From Alphaproteobacteria bacterium (GTDB lineage: Bacteria; Pseudomonadota; Alphaproteobacteria; Reyranellales; Reyranellaceae), in the NCBI GenBank assembly GCA_016870055.1, contig VGCQ01000007.1, forward strand, positions 1-36,605: a stretch of DNA of 36,605 bases, given 5' to 3'. This document shows, piece after piece, positions 5,007 to 16,446 of the stretch (positions are counted from its first letter, which is position 1; each line of letters begins with the position of its first letter). Position numbers and translations under genes: made by a program. A model generated the notes under the pieces. That model worked only from the letters and a program-made list of their open reading frames with translations, searched no databases and was not told the origin of the DNA.

Positions 5007-6587
5007 TCACTTGATCTTCGAGTATTTGAAGTTGGGCGAATCGTTGGCGAAGATCGGGATGGTCACCTTGTCGCTCATCGACCAGACGATGAGCTGATGG
5101 TGCAGCGGCAGGTAGGGCATGTCGGCGATGGCGAGCTGCCAGGCCTCGGCGATCATCTTGTCGCGCTTGGCCTGGTCGACCTCCTTCAGCATGCCGTCGG
5201 CCAGCTCGTCCATCTTGGCGTTGCTGTAGCCGGTGAAGTTCCAGCTACCGACCTTCTTGGCTGCATCGTTGGCCTGGTAGAGGAAGGTGAGGACGTAGTG
5301 CGAATCGAGCGTCGGCACGCCCCAGCCGAGCAGGAAGAAGCTTGAGTCCTTCTTCTGCAGCTTGGGGAAATGCAGCGTCTTGGAACGCGCCTGCAAGTCG
5401 ACCTTGATGCCGATCTGCGCCAGCATGCCGGTGACGGCCTGGCAGATCTGCTCGTCGTTGTTGTAGCGGTCGTTCGGGCAGTCGAGCGTCACCGAGAAGC
5501 CGTTGGGGTAGCCGGCGTCGGCCATCAGCTTCTTGGCGGCGGCGACGTCGTACTTCAGCCGCTTGTCGAGCTCCTTGGTGTGGCCGTGCACGCCCGGCGA
5601 GGTGATGAGACCGGCCGGCGCCACGAAGTTGCGCATGACCTTGGCCTTGATGGCGTCGATGTCGATCGCCTGGTACATCGCCTGGCGCACGCGCTTGTCG
5701 GCGAACGGGTTCTTGCCCTTGACGTCGGAATACTTCAGCTCGGCCGCGCCCATGTCGAGGCCGAGGAAGATCGAACGGACCTGCGCGGTCTCCTCGGTCT
5801 TGAGGCCGGGCGTCTGGCGGATGCGGGCGATGTCCTGCAAGGGCGCGTCGAGCACGAAGTCGACTTGGCCTGAGATCAGCGCGGCGACGCGAGTCGCCGG
5901 TTCCTTGATCGGCGTGTAGACCAGCTCGTCGGGATAGCCGGGAAACTCCTTGGCGCCCCAGTAGGTCGGGTTCTTGGCCATCACGGTGCGCACGTCGGGG
6001 TCGCGCTGCTTCAAGGTGTAGGGTCCGGTGCCCATGGCGTTGCGGACCGCGTAGGTCTCCTCCTTGTCCTTGTAGCTCTGCGGCTTGACGACGTTGTGCT
6101 TCTCGGCCCACGCCTTGGACATGATCAGGATCGAGGTCGTGTAGTCGGGCAGGATGGGGTTGGGCCCGCTGGTGACGATGTGAACCGTCAGCGGATCGAC
6201 CGCCTTCACTTCCTTGATCGACGAGATGTAGGAGCGGAAGTCGGAAGTCGGCGCCAGCGCACGGTTGTAGCTGAACACCACGTCGGCGGCGGTGAACGGC
6301 GTGCCGTCGCTGAACTTCACGTCCGGCCGCAGCTTGAACTCCCAGGTGTCGACCGCGATCGGCTTCCAGCTCACCGCCAGCGCCGGCACCTTGGCCAATG
6401 ACGGATCGCGGCTGATCAGCGGGTCGTAGACATGGGCATTCATGGCCCCGGTCGGCCCCTCGTTCTGCGCATGCGGGTCCATCGTGAGCGCGTCGCCTTG
6501 GCTCGACCAGCGCAGGGTTTTGGCCTCGGCGATCGACGCCGATCCCAGAACAACGGCGGCGAGCGCCGCCATACGAGCAACGAACAT
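5007..6587 (-). CDS. ABC transporter solute-binding protein, SBP_bac_5 family (DppA-like)
   Basis: This is a 526-residue periplasmic binding protein that would feed the two downstream permeases. Residues 1-22 form a signal peptide ending near A-S-I-A-E-A. The mature part opens with the family motif T-L-R-W-S-S-Q-G-D-A-L-T-M-D-P-H and continues with D-T-W-E-F-K-L-R-P-D-V-K-F-S-D-G-T-P-F-T-A-A-D-V-V-F-S, the most conserved stretch of the family. The reading frame extends further upstream, but the ATG at 6585-6587 gives the signal peptide at the right place and has an AGGAGG ribosome-binding site 8 bases before it. The ligand class may be peptide, nickel-chelate or sugar-acid; sequence alone does not settle it. 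Confidence 0.93.
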   Translation of the reverse strand: MFVARMAALAAVVLGSASIAEAKTLRWSSQGDALTMDPHAQNEGPTGAMNAHVYDPLISRDPSLAKVPALAVSWKPIAVDTWEFKLRPDVKFSDGTPFTAADVVFSYNRALAPTSDFRSYISSIKEVKAVDPLTVHIVTSGPNPILPDYTTSILIMSKAWAEKHNVVKPQSYKDKEETYAVRNAMGTGPYTLKQRDPDVRTVMAKNPTYWGAKEFPGYPDELVYTPIKEPATRVAALISGQVDFVLDAPLQDIARIRQTPGLKTEETAQVRSIFLGLDMGAAELKYSDVKGKNPFADKRVRQAMYQAIDIDAIKAKVMRNFVAPAGLITSPGVHGHTKELDKRLKYDVAAAKKLMADAGYPNGFSVTLDCPNDRYNNDEQICQAVTGMLAQIGIKVDLQARSKTLHFPKLQKKDSSFFLLGWGVPTLDSHYVLTFLYQANDAAKKVGSWNFTGYSNAKMDELADGMLKEVDQAKRDKMIAEAWQLAIADMPYLPLHHQLIVWSMSDKVTIPIFANDSPNFKYSKIK

Positions 6588-11163: not shown

Positions 11164-12513
11164 TTAGGCAGCCCGATCCACCGTCGCGAAACCATCGTCG
11201 CAGTAGATCGTGCGGCCGCCGACGATGGTTGCCATGACGCGGCCCTGCACGGGGCGCTCATCGAACGGCGTGTTCTTGGTCTTGCTCCATAGCTCGTCGC
11301 GGTCGACCTTCCAGGCATAGTCGGCGTCGAACACGACGAGGTCGGCGGGGGCGCCTTTGGCGAGGCGCCCGCCGGGCAACCCGAACAGGCGTGCCGGCGT
11401 GCTGGCCAGGCGCTGGAACAGCTGCGGCAAGGTGAGATGGCCGTTGTGGACCAGCTCCAGCGAGACCGGCAGCAGGGTTTCCAGGCCGACGCCGCCCGGC
11501 TCGGCCTGGGCGAACGGCACGCGCTTGCTTTCCTGGTCTTGCGGCCGGTGGTCGGAGACGATGGCGTCGATCGTGCCGTCTTTCAGTCCGGCGACCACGG
11601 CCAGCCGATCCTTCTCGGCCCGCAGCGGTGGCACCAGCTTGCCGAACGTGCGGTAGTCGCCGACCGCCAGGTCGTTCAGGGCGAAGTAGGGCGCGGCGGT
11701 GTCGCAGGTGATCTTGAGGCCGCGCGCCTTGGCGCCGGCGATGGCGGCGATCGCTTCGGCCGTCGAGATCTTGGCGAGGTGCAGCCGTCCACCGGTCATC
11801 TCGGCGAGCCGGATGTCGCGCTCGACCAGCATGACCTCGGCAAGCGGCGGATTGCCGGACAGACCGAGCCGTGTCGCCATCTCGCCACTGGTCATGTGGC
11901 CGCCCGACAAGGTCGGCTCCTGCGGCAGGTGCACGATCAAGGCGCCGAACGCCTTGGCGTAGTACAGCGCGCGTCGCAGCACCTGGGCGTTGCCGACGGC
12001 GTGGTCGGCGTCGGTGAAGGCGACCGCGCCGGCCTCGGCCAGCAGGCCCATCTCGGCCAGCTCCTTGCCCTCGAGCCCCACCGTGAGCGCGCCGTAGGCA
12101 TACATGTTCGCCAGCTTTATCTGGCGGGCGCGGCGGGCCACGAACTCGATCAGCGAGGCATCGTCGAACGGCGGGTCGTTGTCGGGCAGCAGCACCATCG
12201 AGGTGATGCCGCCCACCGCGGCGGCGGCGCCGGCGCTCTCCAGCGTCTCCTTGTGCTCCTCGCCCGGCTCGCCGGTATGGACGCGCGTGTCGACCAGACC
12301 CGGCGCCAGGTAAAGGCCGCGGCAGTCGACCAACTGGATGCCGTAGGGCGCGCCGGAGGCGAACAGGTTCGGCCCGTAGTCTGCGATCTTGCCGTCGCTG
12401 ATCAGGATGGAGCCGCGATAGTCGGTATCGGCGGTGGGATCGACGATGTGGGCGTTGATGAAGGCGGTCGCTCCGCTGTGTTGCGGCGCCAGCCGATCGA
12501 TGCTGCCGCTCAC
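11164..12513 (-). CDS. pyrC: Dihydroorotase-like protein with degenerate metal site (PyrC/PyrX type)
   Basis: This 449-residue amidohydrolase-fold protein sits directly after pyrB. The GTG at 12511-12513 overlaps the pyrB stop by 4 bases. It has the multi-functional-complex dihydroorotase layout, but the zinc ligands are largely gone. The D-x-H-x-H signature reads D75-T-R-V-H79, with Arg77 for the first histidine. The histidine that normally precedes V-S-T is Lys248. The T-D-H-A-P-H motif reads S-D321-H-R-P-Q. The Asp is kept, but catalysis is unlikely. Non-catalytic homologues paired with PyrB are known in pseudomonads, where they are needed for aspartate carbamoyltransferase assembly, and alphaproteobacteria often carry a similar pair. 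The working dihydroorotase is then expected elsewhere in the genome. Confidence 0.9.
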
Positions 12514-13478
12514 GCCGCGGCTCCCGCCAGCGCATTGCGCCGCCCGCCGACCAGGGCTTCCAGGCATGCCATGCGTACCGCCACGCCCATCTCGACCTGC
12601 TCGTGGATGACCGATCGGTTGATGTCGTCGGCGACTTCGGAGTCGATTTCCACGCCGCGGTTCATCGGCCCGGGATGCATGATCAGGGCGTCGGGCTTGG
12701 CGATTTTGAGCTTCTCGTGGTCGAGGCCGAAGAAGCGGAAGTACTCGCTGATCGACGGCACGAACGAGCCCTGCATGCGCTCGGTCTGCAGGCGCAGCAT
12801 CATGACGATGTCGACGTCCTTGAGGCCGCTCTTCATGCTGTAGTGGACCTCGACACCCAGCCGGTCGATATCGGTCGGCATCAGGGTCGGCGGGCCGACC
12901 ACCCGGACGCGGGCGCCCATGATCTGCAGCAGATGGATGTTCGAACGCGCCACGCGGCTGTGCATGATGTCGCCGCAGATCGCCACCAGCAGGCCTTCCA
13001 ACCGGCCGCGGCGGCGGCGGATGGTGAGGGCATCGAGCAGGGCCTGCGTCGGGTGCTCGTGCTGGCCGTCGCCGCCGTTGATGACCGCGCAGTTCACCTT
13101 TTGCGAAAGAAGATTGACCGCGCCCGATTCGCTGTGCCGCACCACGATGGCGTCCGGCCGCATGGCGTTGAGCGTCATGGCCGTGTCGAGCAGGGTCTCG
13201 CCCTTGCGCACCGAAGACGTGGCGACGTCCATGTTGATGACGTCGGCGCCCAGTCGCTTGGCCGCCACCTCGAAGCTGGTCCGCGTGCGCGTCGAATTCT
13301 CGAAGAACAGATTGATGACGGTGCGGCCCGACAGTAGGTCGCGCCGCTTGTCGATGGACCGGTTCTGGTCGATGTAGCTTTCGGAAAGGTCGAGCAGGCC
13401 CGAAATGGTTTCGGGCGACAGACCTTCGATGCCGAGCAGATGGGGCAACCTCGGCACGCCCGCGCGCTTTTTTGTCAC
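12510..13478 (-). CDS. pyrB: Aspartate carbamoyltransferase catalytic subunit
   Basis: PyrB condenses carbamoyl phosphate with aspartate, the committed step of pyrimidine synthesis. The 322-residue protein carries the carbamoyl-phosphate loop S62-T-R-T-R66-T-S-F-E, the H-P-T-Q-A-L-L-D motif, the aspartate-domain M-L-R-L-Q-T-E-R segment and H-P-G-P-M-N-R-G near residue 270. All catalytic motifs are intact. The start is a GTG at 13476-13478, 12 bp after the cysteine hydrolase stop; there is no good ribosome-binding site, which suggests translational coupling. No pyrI regulatory subunit is present, as is usual for class A enzymes that assemble with a dihydroorotase-like partner. The gene belongs to a four-gene minus-strand unit starting at 15280. 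Confidence 0.97.
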
Positions 13479-13490
13479 TAAAGCGCGACG

Positions 13491-14063
13491 TTAAGCACGC
13501 TGTGGCGGCGCTCGCAAGGCGGCGAGATGGTGGATAACCGTTTCGGTCGGCTTGACGTGCGCCGGCCCGGCGGGAGCCAGGAAATCGGCCCAGATCGCAT
13601 TGTGGTGCCCGATGATCTTTGCCGCCGCCAGGTGCGGCCGGTCCGATGTCGTATGGCCGTCGGCCGGCACGATGGTCGGCCAGCCACGCGCCAGTGCGGA
13701 GCGGACGGTGGTGTCGACGCAGTAGTCGGTGGCGCAGCCGGCCACGATCAGCGTGCGGGCCGCCCGTGCGCGCAGGGTGTCGTCGAGCGACGTGCCGAGG
13801 AACGAATCGCAGGCTGCCTTGCGCACGAAGGCATCGCCTGCGCGCGCGTCGAGCTCGCTTAGGAGCCGCCACCCCGGCGCGTCGGGGTGGTGGGGATCGC
13901 CCGGCGGACCGTCATGCTGGACGAACACCACGGCGCCGCCCTGCTCGCGCACCGCCGCGGCGAGCCGGTTGAGCCGGCGGATCACGCCGGCGGCATCGTG
14001 GCGCGGCGTGGCGACGCCGAACGAGCCCTGCTGCATATCGATGACGATCAGGGCGTAGGTCAT
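13491..14063 (-). CDS. Isochorismatase-family cysteine hydrolase
   Basis: This is a 190-residue alpha/beta hydrolase of the isochorismatase-like amidase superfamily, cleaving an amide or similar bond through a cysteine nucleophile. The triad is intact: Asp9 in L-I-V-I-D-M-Q, Lys82 in V-R-K-A-A-C-D-S-F, and Cys115 in A-T-D-Y-C-V-D-T-T. The order and spacing match nicotinamidase, carbamoylsarcosine amidase and RutB ureidoacrylate amidase, so an amidase is more likely than a true isochorismatase. Its position is unusual: it lies between the HTH-citrate synthase gene (11 bp) and pyrB (12 bp) on one strand. A GAGG ribosome-binding site stands 6 bases before the ATG. Action on a carbamoyl or ureido compound linked to pyrimidines is possible, but that rests on context only. 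Confidence 0.88.
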   Translation of the reverse strand: MTYALIVIDMQQGSFGVATPRHDAAGVIRRLNRLAAAVREQGGAVVFVQHDGPPGDPHHPDAPGWRLLSELDARAGDAFVRKAACDSFLGTSLDDTLRARAARTLIVAGCATDYCVDTTVRSALARGWPTIVPADGHTTSDRPHLAAAKIIGHHNAIWADFLAPAGPAHVKPTETVIHHLAALRAPPQRA

Positions 14064-14074
14064 GTGCCCTCGCT

Positions 14075-15280
14075 TCAGCCGGTCGGCCGAGGACCCGTAT
14101 AGCGCGCGCGCGGTCGGATCAATGCCCCGCGTGCGGCCTGCTCCAGCGCATGGGCGATCCAGCCGACGGTGCGGCCGAGCAGGAACAGGGCGAGGGCGGA
14201 GCCTTTGGGCAGGGCGAGCACGCGTTCGATCACCACCGTGGTGAAGTCGATGTTGGGCCGCCGGTCGATCAGGCGTTCGACCGACGCCGCGAGCTTCTCG
14301 GCGAAGAGGAATTCCGGACAGTCGGGCGTCGTCTCGCGCAGCAGGGCGAGTAACGTGGCGGCTCGCACGTCGCCGTCGGGGTAGAGCTGATGGCCGAACC
14401 CCGAGATGTAGATGCGATCACGCACGCGGCGGACCAACTCGAGATCGACATCGCGGACGTCCCGCAGGTCTTCGATCAACGAGGCGACGCGTCGCGTCAA
14501 TCCACCGTGGCGTGGTCCGTTCAAGGCGGTGAGGCCGGCCATCACCGCGCCATAGAGGTTGGCGCCGGTCGAGGCGACGACCCGAGCGGCGAAGGCCGAG
14601 GCGTTGAACTCGTGATCGGCCGAGAGCACCAGGGCGGCGCGCAGCAGTGGCGCCTTGACTGCCGGCACCCGCCAAGCCGCGGCGAGCTGCTGATGGACGG
14701 GCAGGGCCGAAAGCGGCCGGGCGGTCACGGCCGCCGTCAACAGCCGCAGCACGCGCACACCGGCCTCCAGCATGGCCGGGCGATCCTCGACCCAGCTCGG
14801 ATGATCCATTGCCGCCGCAGCCGGCAGCACCACCAGGCAGCGATCGACCGGTCCCAGCGTCGCCGCCGCGAGCCATGCTCGTCGCAGGGCGGCGCTCATC
14901 GGCGGCAGGTTGTCGGCAGCGAACGGCCTGTCGTCGCAGTCCCAGAGCAGCCGTGCCACGTCCTCGAGCGCAGCGCTGCGCGCCAGCGAAGCGGCGTCTT
15001 CGCCGCGATAGTAGAGGCGGTTGTCTTCGATCAGGGTGAGTGCGGACTCGAGAACCGGCGTGCCGAAATCGAGAGCGTGATGAGCGATCGACTCGGCCTT
15101 GCGTCCGACGTCGCGGCGGCGTTTGAGGCGGGTGATGTCGTCGGCGCGATAGCGGCGCTCGCGCCGGCCGTCGAGCGATTCGGATCGCAGCAAGCCGCGG
15201 CTCACGTAGGCGTAGAGCGTCGCCGCCGACACGCCGAGCCGTCGGGCGGCTTCCTTGGAGCTCAGCCAGTCGTTTGCCAT
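14075..15280 (-). CDS. Citrate synthase homologue fused to an N-terminal HTH domain
   Basis: This 401-residue protein begins with a MerR/excisionase-type helix-turn-helix (L-S-S-K-E-A-A-R-R-L-G-V-S-A-A-T-L-Y-A-Y-V, residues 5-25, then a basic R-R-E-R-R-Y-R-A-D-D-I wing). A citrate synthase fold follows from about residue 60. The three catalytic positions are kept: His258 in G-P-R-H-G-G, His297 in G-F-G-H-Q-L-Y, and Asp345 in N-I-D-F. The arginine that usually follows the second histidine is Gln298. It may therefore be an enzyme, a metabolite-sensing regulator, or both. The ATG at 15278-15280 is preceded by no ribosome-binding site but by a TATAAA box and an 18-bp palindrome. The gene diverges from a second citrate synthase gene and heads the unit with the hydrolase, pyrB and pyrC. 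Confidence 0.87.
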   Translation of the reverse strand: MANDWLSSKEAARRLGVSAATLYAYVSRGLLRSESLDGRRERRYRADDITRLKRRRDVGRKAESIAHHALDFGTPVLESALTLIEDNRLYYRGEDAASLARSAALEDVARLLWDCDDRPFAADNLPPMSAALRRAWLAAATLGPVDRCLVVLPAAAAMDHPSWVEDRPAMLEAGVRVLRLLTAAVTARPLSALPVHQQLAAAWRVPAVKAPLLRAALVLSADHEFNASAFAARVVASTGANLYGAVMAGLTALNGPRHGGLTRRVASLIEDLRDVRDVDLELVRRVRDRIYISGFGHQLYPDGDVRAATLLALLRETTPDCPEFLFAEKLAASVERLIDRRPNIDFTTVVIERVLALPKGSALALFLLGRTVGWIAHALEQAARGALIRPRARYTGPRPTG

Positions 15281-15303
15281 GCGTTTATATTGATCAATAT
15301 AAT
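15274..15303 (+). promoter_or_regulatory. Strong sigma-70-like promoter for the citrate synthase gene at 15364
   Basis: TTGCCA (15274-15279, five of six matches to the -35 consensus), an 18-bp spacer and a perfect TATAAT (15298-15303). Transcription would start near 15310, about 54 nt before the ATG, leaving room for the visible AAAGGA ribosome-binding site. The -35 box lies inside the start of the divergent HTH-citrate synthase gene. On the other strand a TATAAA (15284-15289) lies 3 bases from that gene's ATG, which would give a leaderless or nearly leaderless message; its best -35 (TTGTCA) is 20 bp away. Confidence 0.6.
15285..15302. promoter_or_regulatory. Perfect 18-bp palindrome, probable operator
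   Basis: TTATATTGATCAATATAA is an exact dyad lying in the 83-bp gap between two divergent citrate synthase-like genes. It fills the spacer of the rightward promoter, covers five of the six bases of its TATAAT box, and ends 4 bases from the ATG of the leftward gene, so a bound dimer would block both promoters. The natural ligand is the HTH-citrate synthase encoded next to it. The palindrome and its placement are seen; the binding protein is inferred. Confidence 0.7.
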
Positions 15304-15363
15304 CAAGATTGACAAGAGGATTCAGCGCGCCGACCGTGGCGGCGGGCAGAGAAAGGAACCGCC

Positions 15364-16446
15364 ATGTTGCTGACACGGGTGAATAGCGGACTCGACGGTG
15401 TCGTCGTAGCCGACACCGCCATGAGCGAAGTCGATGGCGAAGCCGGCCGGCTGATCGTGCGCGGCCATGCCATCGAGGCGCTGGTGGCGACGCGCGGCTT
15501 TGAAGGCGTCGCGGCCTTGCTGTGGCAGGGCTACGCCGAGGGCGGCGGCGATGCGGCGGCAGTGCGGCGCGGCCTCGCGGCGGCGCGCCTCCGCGCCTTC
15601 GCCGACGTGCCCAGGCTGTTGGTGGCGGCGAGTGGCCTCAATCCGGTGGAGGCGCTGCGGGTCGGCATCGGCATGTTGGCCGACGCCGAGCCGATGCCTC
15701 ACCACTTCCTGATCTGCGGCGCCCTGCCGGTCTTCCTAGCGGCGCTGCTCAATGCCGAGAAAGGGTTGCCGGCGATCGCTCCCGATCGCGAACTGACGAC
15801 GGCGCAGGACTTTCTGCGCATGACGCGCGGTCAGCGCGCCGGGCCGGCCTTCGAGAGGGCGCTCGACACCTATCTCGCCACCATCGCCGACCACGGCTTC
15901 AACGCGTCGACCTTCACCGCCCGGGTCGTCGCCTCGACGCGCGCCGGCCTGATCTCGTCGGTGCTGGCGGCGCTTTGCGCGCTCAAGGGACCGCTGCATG
16001 GCGGCGCGCCCGGACCGGTGCTCGACATGCTGGACGAGATCGGCGAGGCATCACGCGCCGAGGCCTGGTTCGATCGGGCGTTCGCCGACGGCGTGACGCT
16101 GATGGGCTTCGGTCACCGCATCTACAAGGTCCGCGATCCACGGGCCGACGTCCTGAAGGCCACGGTCGCCACGCTTCCAGCGACGGCCGGCCGCCTGGCC
16201 TACGCCGCCGCAGTCGAGCAAGGAGCCATAGCTGCGCTGCGGCGGCACAAGCCGGGGCGTCGGCTCGAAACCAACGTCGAGTACTACACCGCCTTGCTGC
16301 TTGAGGCGTTGGCGGTGCCGCGAAGCGCCTTCACCGCCTTGTTCGCCGTCGGCCGCGCCGCCGGTTGGTGTGCCCACATCTTCGAGCAGGAGAAGGGCGG
16401 CCGCATCATACGGCCACAGTCGAACTATATCGGCCCGCGACCTTAG
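15364..16446 (+). CDS. Citrate synthase/2-methylcitrate synthase-like protein with Asp to Glu at the catalytic acid
   Basis: This is a 360-residue stand-alone citrate synthase-fold protein, shorter than the usual 370-430. It keeps His212 in G-P-L-H-G-G and His251 in G-F-G-H-R-I-Y-K-V-R-D-P-R-A. The catalytic aspartate motif N-V-D-F-Y reads N-V-E306-Y-Y, so the general base is glutamate. The family uses acetyl-CoA or propionyl-CoA with oxaloacetate; the substitution may change rate or substrate. An AAAGGA ribosome-binding site stands 6 bases before the ATG, and a strong promoter with an operator-like palindrome lies upstream. It shares its fold with the divergent HTH-fused homologue and overlaps the next convergent gene by 4 bases at the stop codons. 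The housekeeping gltA is probably elsewhere. Confidence 0.88.
   Translation: MLLTRVNSGLDGVVVADTAMSEVDGEAGRLIVRGHAIEALVATRGFEGVAALLWQGYAEGGGDAAAVRRGLAAARLRAFADVPRLLVAASGLNPVEALRVGIGMLADAEPMPHHFLICGALPVFLAALLNAEKGLPAIAPDRELTTAQDFLRMTRGQRAGPAFERALDTYLATIADHGFNASTFTARVVASTRAGLISSVLAALCALKGPLHGGAPGPVLDMLDEIGEASRAEAWFDRAFADGVTLMGFGHRIYKVRDPRADVLKATVATLPATAGRLAYAAAVEQGAIAALRRHKPGRRLETNVEYYTALLLEALAVPRSAFTALFAVGRAAGWCAHIFEQEKGGRIIRPQSNYIGPRP

Follow-up and report, generated by a model that had tools for sequence, protein, structure and literature searches.

Two citrate synthase genes diverge from an 83-bp gap in the window analyzed here, a 36,605-nt stretch of a Reyranella genome (Reyranellaceae, Alphaproteobacteria), and this gap holds a perfect palindrome. 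What does this sequence control, and which protein would read it? One border of the gap is the start codon (ATG at 15,280) of a minus-strand gene (14,075–15,280) whose product joins a helix-turn-helix (HTH) domain to a citrate synthase domain; we refer to it as HTH-CS and propose that it is a regulator. The other border is a plain citrate synthase gene on the plus strand (15,364–16,446), the divergent partner, as assigned by domain search. A first-pass annotation of this DNA had described a pair of divergent citrate synthase genes. Both are citrate synthases, but the DNA-binding domain of one of them, the likely binder of the site, had been overlooked.

The palindrome TTATATTGATCAATATAA (15,285–15,302, identical on both strands) is exact and lies where the first-pass annotation had placed it. 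It is the longest of the four perfect even palindromes of at least 14 bp in the window and has no other match in the window even with three mismatches allowed; the closest site in the rest of the 5.0-Mb genome carries two mismatches. A Markov model predicts about 0.6 palindromes of at least 18 bp per window but 0.0 at such an AT-rich composition, and shuffling the 83-bp gap 20,000 times yielded a palindrome of this length twice. The length of the palindrome is therefore unremarkable, and it is its composition and place that are remarkable. The expected 0.6 would be compatible with a sequence present by chance or with a structural feature such as a transcript hairpin or a terminator. We find this hardly credible: the palindrome is AT-rich, lies in a promoter and is surrounded by a conserved element, and it would not be transcribed towards HTH-CS if the transcript is leaderless, as proposed below.

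We compared this gap across 52 distinct upstream sequences from Reyranella; the top-scoring orthologues came from this genus and from metagenome-assembled genomes grouped with it. All share an AT-rich block whose conservation is far above that of its flanks. The expectation of the first-pass annotation that a functional dyad would be conserved in relatives holds for the gap, which is conserved well beyond its surroundings, but not for the exact palindrome, which was found in only 6 of the 52 gaps and in none of 56 distant sites; at four of its nine pairs, complementarity is limited to a minority of the 52 sequences. The conserved unit is a 25-bp element, GTCAAT[A/C]TTGATT-N5-[A/G]ATCAAT on the HTH-CS strand, which is shifted and longer relative to the 18-bp palindrome. 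It corresponds in the window to GTCAATCTTGATTATATTGATCAAT (15,289–15,313, minus strand), a candidate operator that is conserved across the genus and the family. Its symmetric core is a 17-bp dyad, TTGAT-N7-ATCAA (15,290–15,306), also conserved family-wide. The stretch TTGTCAAT[A/C]TTGA shows little or no variation in Reyranella (T replaces G in one sequence), and the right arm of the dyad is of an imperfect ATCCA type in 14 of the 52 sequences. Of 49 genomes of the genus, 42 contain the element at a single site, and a search for a regulon in the source genome returned, beyond the operator, just one site with three mismatches, on another contig. Judged from these alignments, the perfect palindrome is how the right part of the conserved operator reads in a few species, a lineage-specific variant of it.

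The arrangement of the gap varies in some relatives. Some loci (L059; L065, upstream of 2501; and L012) carry about 700 bp of extra DNA between the operator and HTH-CS; the operator remains beside the citrate synthase gene and HTH-CS keeps a degenerate site. At L063/L015 the distance from the operator to HTH-CS, 103 bp, exceeds that in relatives, and the start codon is adjoined by a partial second copy (ATCAATATTGATTAAG).

The position of the element relative to the promoters bears directly on its role. The first-pass annotation had assigned the promoter to TTGCCA (15,274–15,279) and TATAAT (15,298–15,303), separated by 18 nt, and this is the only sigma-70-like site in the 801 bp scanned. As it had noted, the palindrome covers five bases of TATAAT, and 4 bases separate its end from the minus-strand ATG. 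It does not fill the spacer, however, of which it covers 13 of 18 bases, and the TTGCCA hexamer falls within codons 2–3 of HTH-CS. Both hexamers are preserved at four or more of six positions in only 20 of the 52 sequences, so we reject this site as the conserved promoter of the citrate synthase gene; it may be an extra promoter in the window species. A second candidate for this gene, TTGATC-N17-CAATAT, was also set aside: TTGATC is present in 31 of the 52 sequences, the window has CAAGAG, and this candidate is less supported than TTGACA-N17.

Two other promoters are better supported by the alignment. On the plus strand, the proposed −35 element of the citrate synthase gene, TTGACA (15,309–15,314), is present in all 52 sequences. 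It would be followed after 17 nt by a −10 element that reads GACCGT in the window species (15,332–15,337), a poor match (2/6), and follows the pattern [G/A]AnnTT in the genus. A hexamer with A at its second and T at its sixth position follows TTGACA in 43 of 52 sequences at a spacing of 17, relative to 20 at 16, 7 at 18 and 0–4 elsewhere. A Shine-Dalgarno-like sequence, AGAAAGGA (15,350–15,357), precedes the citrate synthase ATG, and a loose pattern of this type was found on this side in all 52 sequences. On the minus strand, the proposed −35 element of HTH-CS, TTGTCA (15,310–15,315), is likewise present in 52 of 52 sequences, and its first T lies 35 nt from the HTH-CS start codon in 47 of them (36 nt in three and 34 nt in two). 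The corresponding −10 element is weak (3/6), either CAATAT after a spacer of 17 (15,287–15,292, 6 nt before the ATG) or AATATA after a spacer of 18; these spacings leave 5–6 nt before the start codon. A Shine-Dalgarno core was found before HTH-CS in none of the 52 sequences. The nearly fixed distance to TTGTCA, the proximity of the −10 element and the lack of a Shine-Dalgarno sequence suggest that the HTH-CS transcript is leaderless and starts at the ATG. In the relatives with the insertion, TTCGCA-N17-TATGAT-N6-ATG still precedes HTH-CS. These results favor TTGACA-N17-GAnnTT for the citrate synthase gene and a leaderless promoter for HTH-CS.

With these promoters, the dyad lies in the −35/−10 region of the HTH-CS promoter and ends 2 bp upstream of the divergent TTGACA. 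This also exposes a weak point, as the GTCAAT part of the element is explicable by the two overlapping −35 elements alone. Conservation might then reflect nothing but two overlapping back-to-back promoters without any operator: the invariant GTCAA is common to TTGTCA and TTGACA, and both −10 regions are AT-rich. Yet the arms of the dyad sit in spacers that need no promoter sequence and are conserved across phyla, and we consider this explanation unlikely, also in view of the distant loci described below.

We then considered the protein most likely to bind the site. HTH-CS carries an HTH_17/MerR_1-like domain at residues 5–56 and a citrate synthase domain at residues 73–391. The N-terminal domain matches the Pfam profiles MerR_1 (34.8 bits; cut-off 21.6) and HTH_17 (35.4; cut-off 27), and scores 26.9 against PF00376, under the cut-off of 28.2; the citrate synthase domain matches PF00285 with 200 bits (cut-off 27). 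The stretch TLYAYVSRG of the HTH is almost invariant among HTH-CS proteins. We compared the active site across 88 unique proteins from our two main sets, using the catalytic (H264, H305 and D362) and oxaloacetate-binding (H229, R314, R387 and R407) residues of the E. coli enzyme. All seven are kept: H258, H297, D345, H223, R306, R370 and R389 are identical in 55 of 55 Reyranella and 33 of 33 distant proteins. The predicted structure (mean pLDDT 85.8) presents helices at residues 46–58 and 62–69 followed by the citrate synthase domain, with low confidence at residues 59–76. It matches the fold of methylcitrate and citrate synthases with a Z score of 34; all matches are to the citrate synthase domain, so this result concerns that domain and not the HTH. 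In the partner citrate synthase, Glu replaces the catalytic Asp in 68 of 68 sequences, and its nearest solved relative, citrate synthase 1 of Bacillus subtilis (2c6x), also has Glu at this position.

The surroundings of HTH-CS in Reyranella include a further gene. Wherever enough sequence is available, pyrB lies downstream of HTH-CS, directly or after an isochorismatase gene; this arrangement is absent from the distant HTH-CS loci. In the window (12,510–15,280), the gaps from HTH-CS to pyrB are 11–12 bp, so pyrB may share the autoregulated promoter of HTH-CS. At one locus (L055, G011:C33), a second paralogue of HTH-CS has diverged to 29% identity; Ile takes the place of its first catalytic His and Glu that of its catalytic Asp. 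This paralogue keeps TLYAYVSRG and has an operator-like site whose arms are N4 apart; its neighbor encodes an amidohydrolase.

Further evidence for the pairing of protein and site comes from distant members of the family. The same element was found upstream of HTH-CS genes whose products share 38–56% identity, in Rhizobium, Agrobacterium, Azospirillum, Chelatococcus, Thalassospira, Herbaspirillum, Burkholderia, Paraburkholderia, Neisseriaceae and others. With HTH-CS genes, it spans Alphaproteobacteria, Betaproteobacteria and a Deinococcus plasmid, where the arms are separated by N4. When scored with a weight matrix that left out the tested locus, most distant loci reached about 29–53 and the Burkholderia-type variants only 3–17; the maxima for shuffled sequences were about 12 or less. 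Both arms, TTGAT and ATCAA, are exact at 45 of the 56 distant sites, and the arm pairs of the dyad are complementary in 48–56 of the 56. In a set of 289 alphaproteobacterial genomes, the element has 13 exact matches, 12 of which lie within 70 bp upstream of an HTH-CS start in the same orientation, as do 21 of the 41 matches with at most one mismatch; the thirteenth exact match is in a small genome with no HTH-CS gene nearby. Conversely, an HTH-CS gene is present in 32 of the 289 genomes. A site with at most one mismatch is present in 21 of these genomes, and most of the others have recognizable variants of the operator. No clear operator site was found in the upstream region of HTH-CS at one locus (L144).

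The close association with one gene also bears on whether another protein might bind the site. The arms TTGAT and ATCAA resemble the half-sites of FNR, and a global regulator of the FNR/FixK type could be the binder, with HTH-CS being merely an enzyme. We regard this as very unlikely: a site of that type is TTGAT-N4-ATCAA, whereas 45 of the 56 distant sites have a spacing of N7; the element occurs at a single site per genome, tied to HTH-CS in 12 of the 13 exact matches; and such a regulator would have no reason to track one gene family across changes of neighbor.

The neighbor does change. Reyranella and about half of one set of distant loci have a citrate synthase as the divergent partner, whereas the remaining loci of that set have a family III CoA-transferase (identified with Pfam for three partners and by BLAST classification); on plasmids it may be neither. 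The element stays with the HTH-CS gene. In the CoA-transferase loci, it mostly lies 48–89 nt from the HTH-CS start, and TTGAY followed after 16–18 bp by T[A/G]nnnT is often found at the equivalent place. On a Burkholderia cepacia plasmid (L005), a locus that stood outside the training set, HTH-CS closes an SDR–MFS–VOC–HTH-CS operon and no site was found directly before the gene. Two copies of the operator (5,846–5,870 on the plus strand and 6,016–6,040 on the minus strand) are located instead in the divergent gap between this operon and a D-glycerate dehydrogenase gene, one beside each. The preservation of the arms in this gap and in the CoA-transferase loci is difficult to explain by overlapping promoters alone, and, from sequence comparison, no other single observation speaks as strongly as the B. 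cepacia gap for a site that belongs to the HTH-CS protein. The plasmid (L005; L170) carries two copies of this catabolic cluster ending in HTH-CS, and the operators were seen in the copy examined. On the pAt plasmid of Agrobacterium fabrum C58 (L166, 2,896–4,173; NC_003064.2, 300,535–301,812), the annotated start of HTH-CS overlaps that of the divergent citrate synthase and covers the operator; this annotation thus looks too long, and the true start is probably located just after the operator.

Taken together, these results suggest, with a probability of roughly 75%, that the conserved element is the operator of the HTH-CS protein encoded next to it, and that this protein represses its own gene and controls the divergent gene from the same site. 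The pairing of protein and site rests on co-occurrence. A dimer of HTH-CS would bind TTGAT-N7-ATCAA through the TLYAYVSRG helix. Bound HTH-CS would then occlude its own promoter and result in autorepression, because the dyad fills the spacer of this promoter and touches its −10 element. The divergent gene might be activated through a contact with RNA polymerase or be repressed, as 2 bp lie between the dyad and the −35 element downstream of it. This position and the poor −10 element make us lean slightly towards activation of the neighbor. Citrate synthases undergo domain closure, and binding of oxaloacetate and/or an acyl-CoA in the citrate synthase pocket would change DNA binding through such a movement. 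A ligand of this pocket is the probable signal, and signals of this kind would fit neighbors that encode a citrate synthase or a CoA-transferase.

The first-pass annotation had proposed instead that one bound dimer shuts both directions. Repression of HTH-CS fits, but the conserved promoters differ from the one on which that proposal was built, and shutting both directions becomes one of two options for the citrate synthase gene. A dimer that blocks the HTH-CS promoter and overlaps that of the citrate synthase is possible, with the odds somewhat against it. In its favor are the place of the dyad within the HTH-CS promoter, the overlap of a third half-site (TCAA-N2-TTGA) with the citrate synthase TTGACA, and the match of TTGCCA-N18-TATAAT to the consensus at 11 of 12 positions in the window species. 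Against this stand the poor conservation of that promoter, the location of the dyad core upstream of the conserved −35 element rather than over it, and a citrate synthase −10 element as poor as those of promoters in need of help. Overall, the initial reading is partly supported: it was right in kind, with a regulatory dyad inside the −35/−10 region of HTH-CS and autoregulation likely, and wrong on the conserved unit and the assigned promoter.

We infer that the larger finding is the conserved operator of a citrate-synthase-based regulator. There is perhaps an even chance that HTH-CS proteins form a widespread and apparently undescribed group of one-component regulators whose sensor is a catalytically intact citrate synthase that reads the supply of oxaloacetate or acyl-CoA in its active site and switches its own gene and a neighboring acyl-CoA enzyme through one fixed operator. 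If true, this would provide a DNA site, a named protein and testable ligands for a family whose members have no more specific database label than “citrate synthase family protein”. This would also be a direct example of an enzyme of central carbon metabolism that became a transcription factor with its active site retained, and a caution against counting HTH-CS genes as ordinary additional citrate synthases in metabolic models.

We finally compared HTH-CS to known systems. A search of the open-access literature found no published DNA-binding citrate synthase of this type. The closest folds are 2-methylcitrate synthases of the PrpC type (6s6f, 3o8j and 3tqg; Z 34.5–34.6, rmsd 2.7 over 324–327 residues), which have the same active-site residues as HTH-CS but share only 24–27% identity with it and lack the DNA-binding domain. 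In another alphaproteobacterium, Caulobacter, the citrate synthase CitA moonlights as a regulator (PMC7083601). In contrast to HTH-CS, CitA is not reported to carry a DNA-binding domain. The genes citB and citC lie side by side in this organism (citC is CCNA_03758), and only CitB replaces GltA of E. coli (PMC7083601).

HTH-CS also resembles the divergent regulators of the MerR family (merR/merT) in its MerR_1/HTH_17-type N-terminal domain, its divergent gene, an operator within a −35/−10 region and its likely autoregulation. The effector part of HTH-CS is a citrate synthase fold, whereas that of MerR is a short coiled coil and a ligand domain. A MerR operator lies in the overlong spacer (19–20 bp) of the target promoter; here, the dyad is in the promoter of HTH-CS itself, with a spacer of 17–18 bp, and outside the TTGACA-N17-GAnnTT of the target. 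This geometry is unlike that of classical MerR activators, and we therefore do not file HTH-CS as a member of that family.

PutA, BirA and NadR are trigger enzymes with a fused DNA-binding domain. As in these proteins, an enzyme fold with its catalytic residues kept is joined to a helix-turn-helix in HTH-CS, and substrate sensing and autoregulation would be expected; the difference is that the enzyme fold is that of a citrate synthase. HTH-CS would work like a trigger enzyme.
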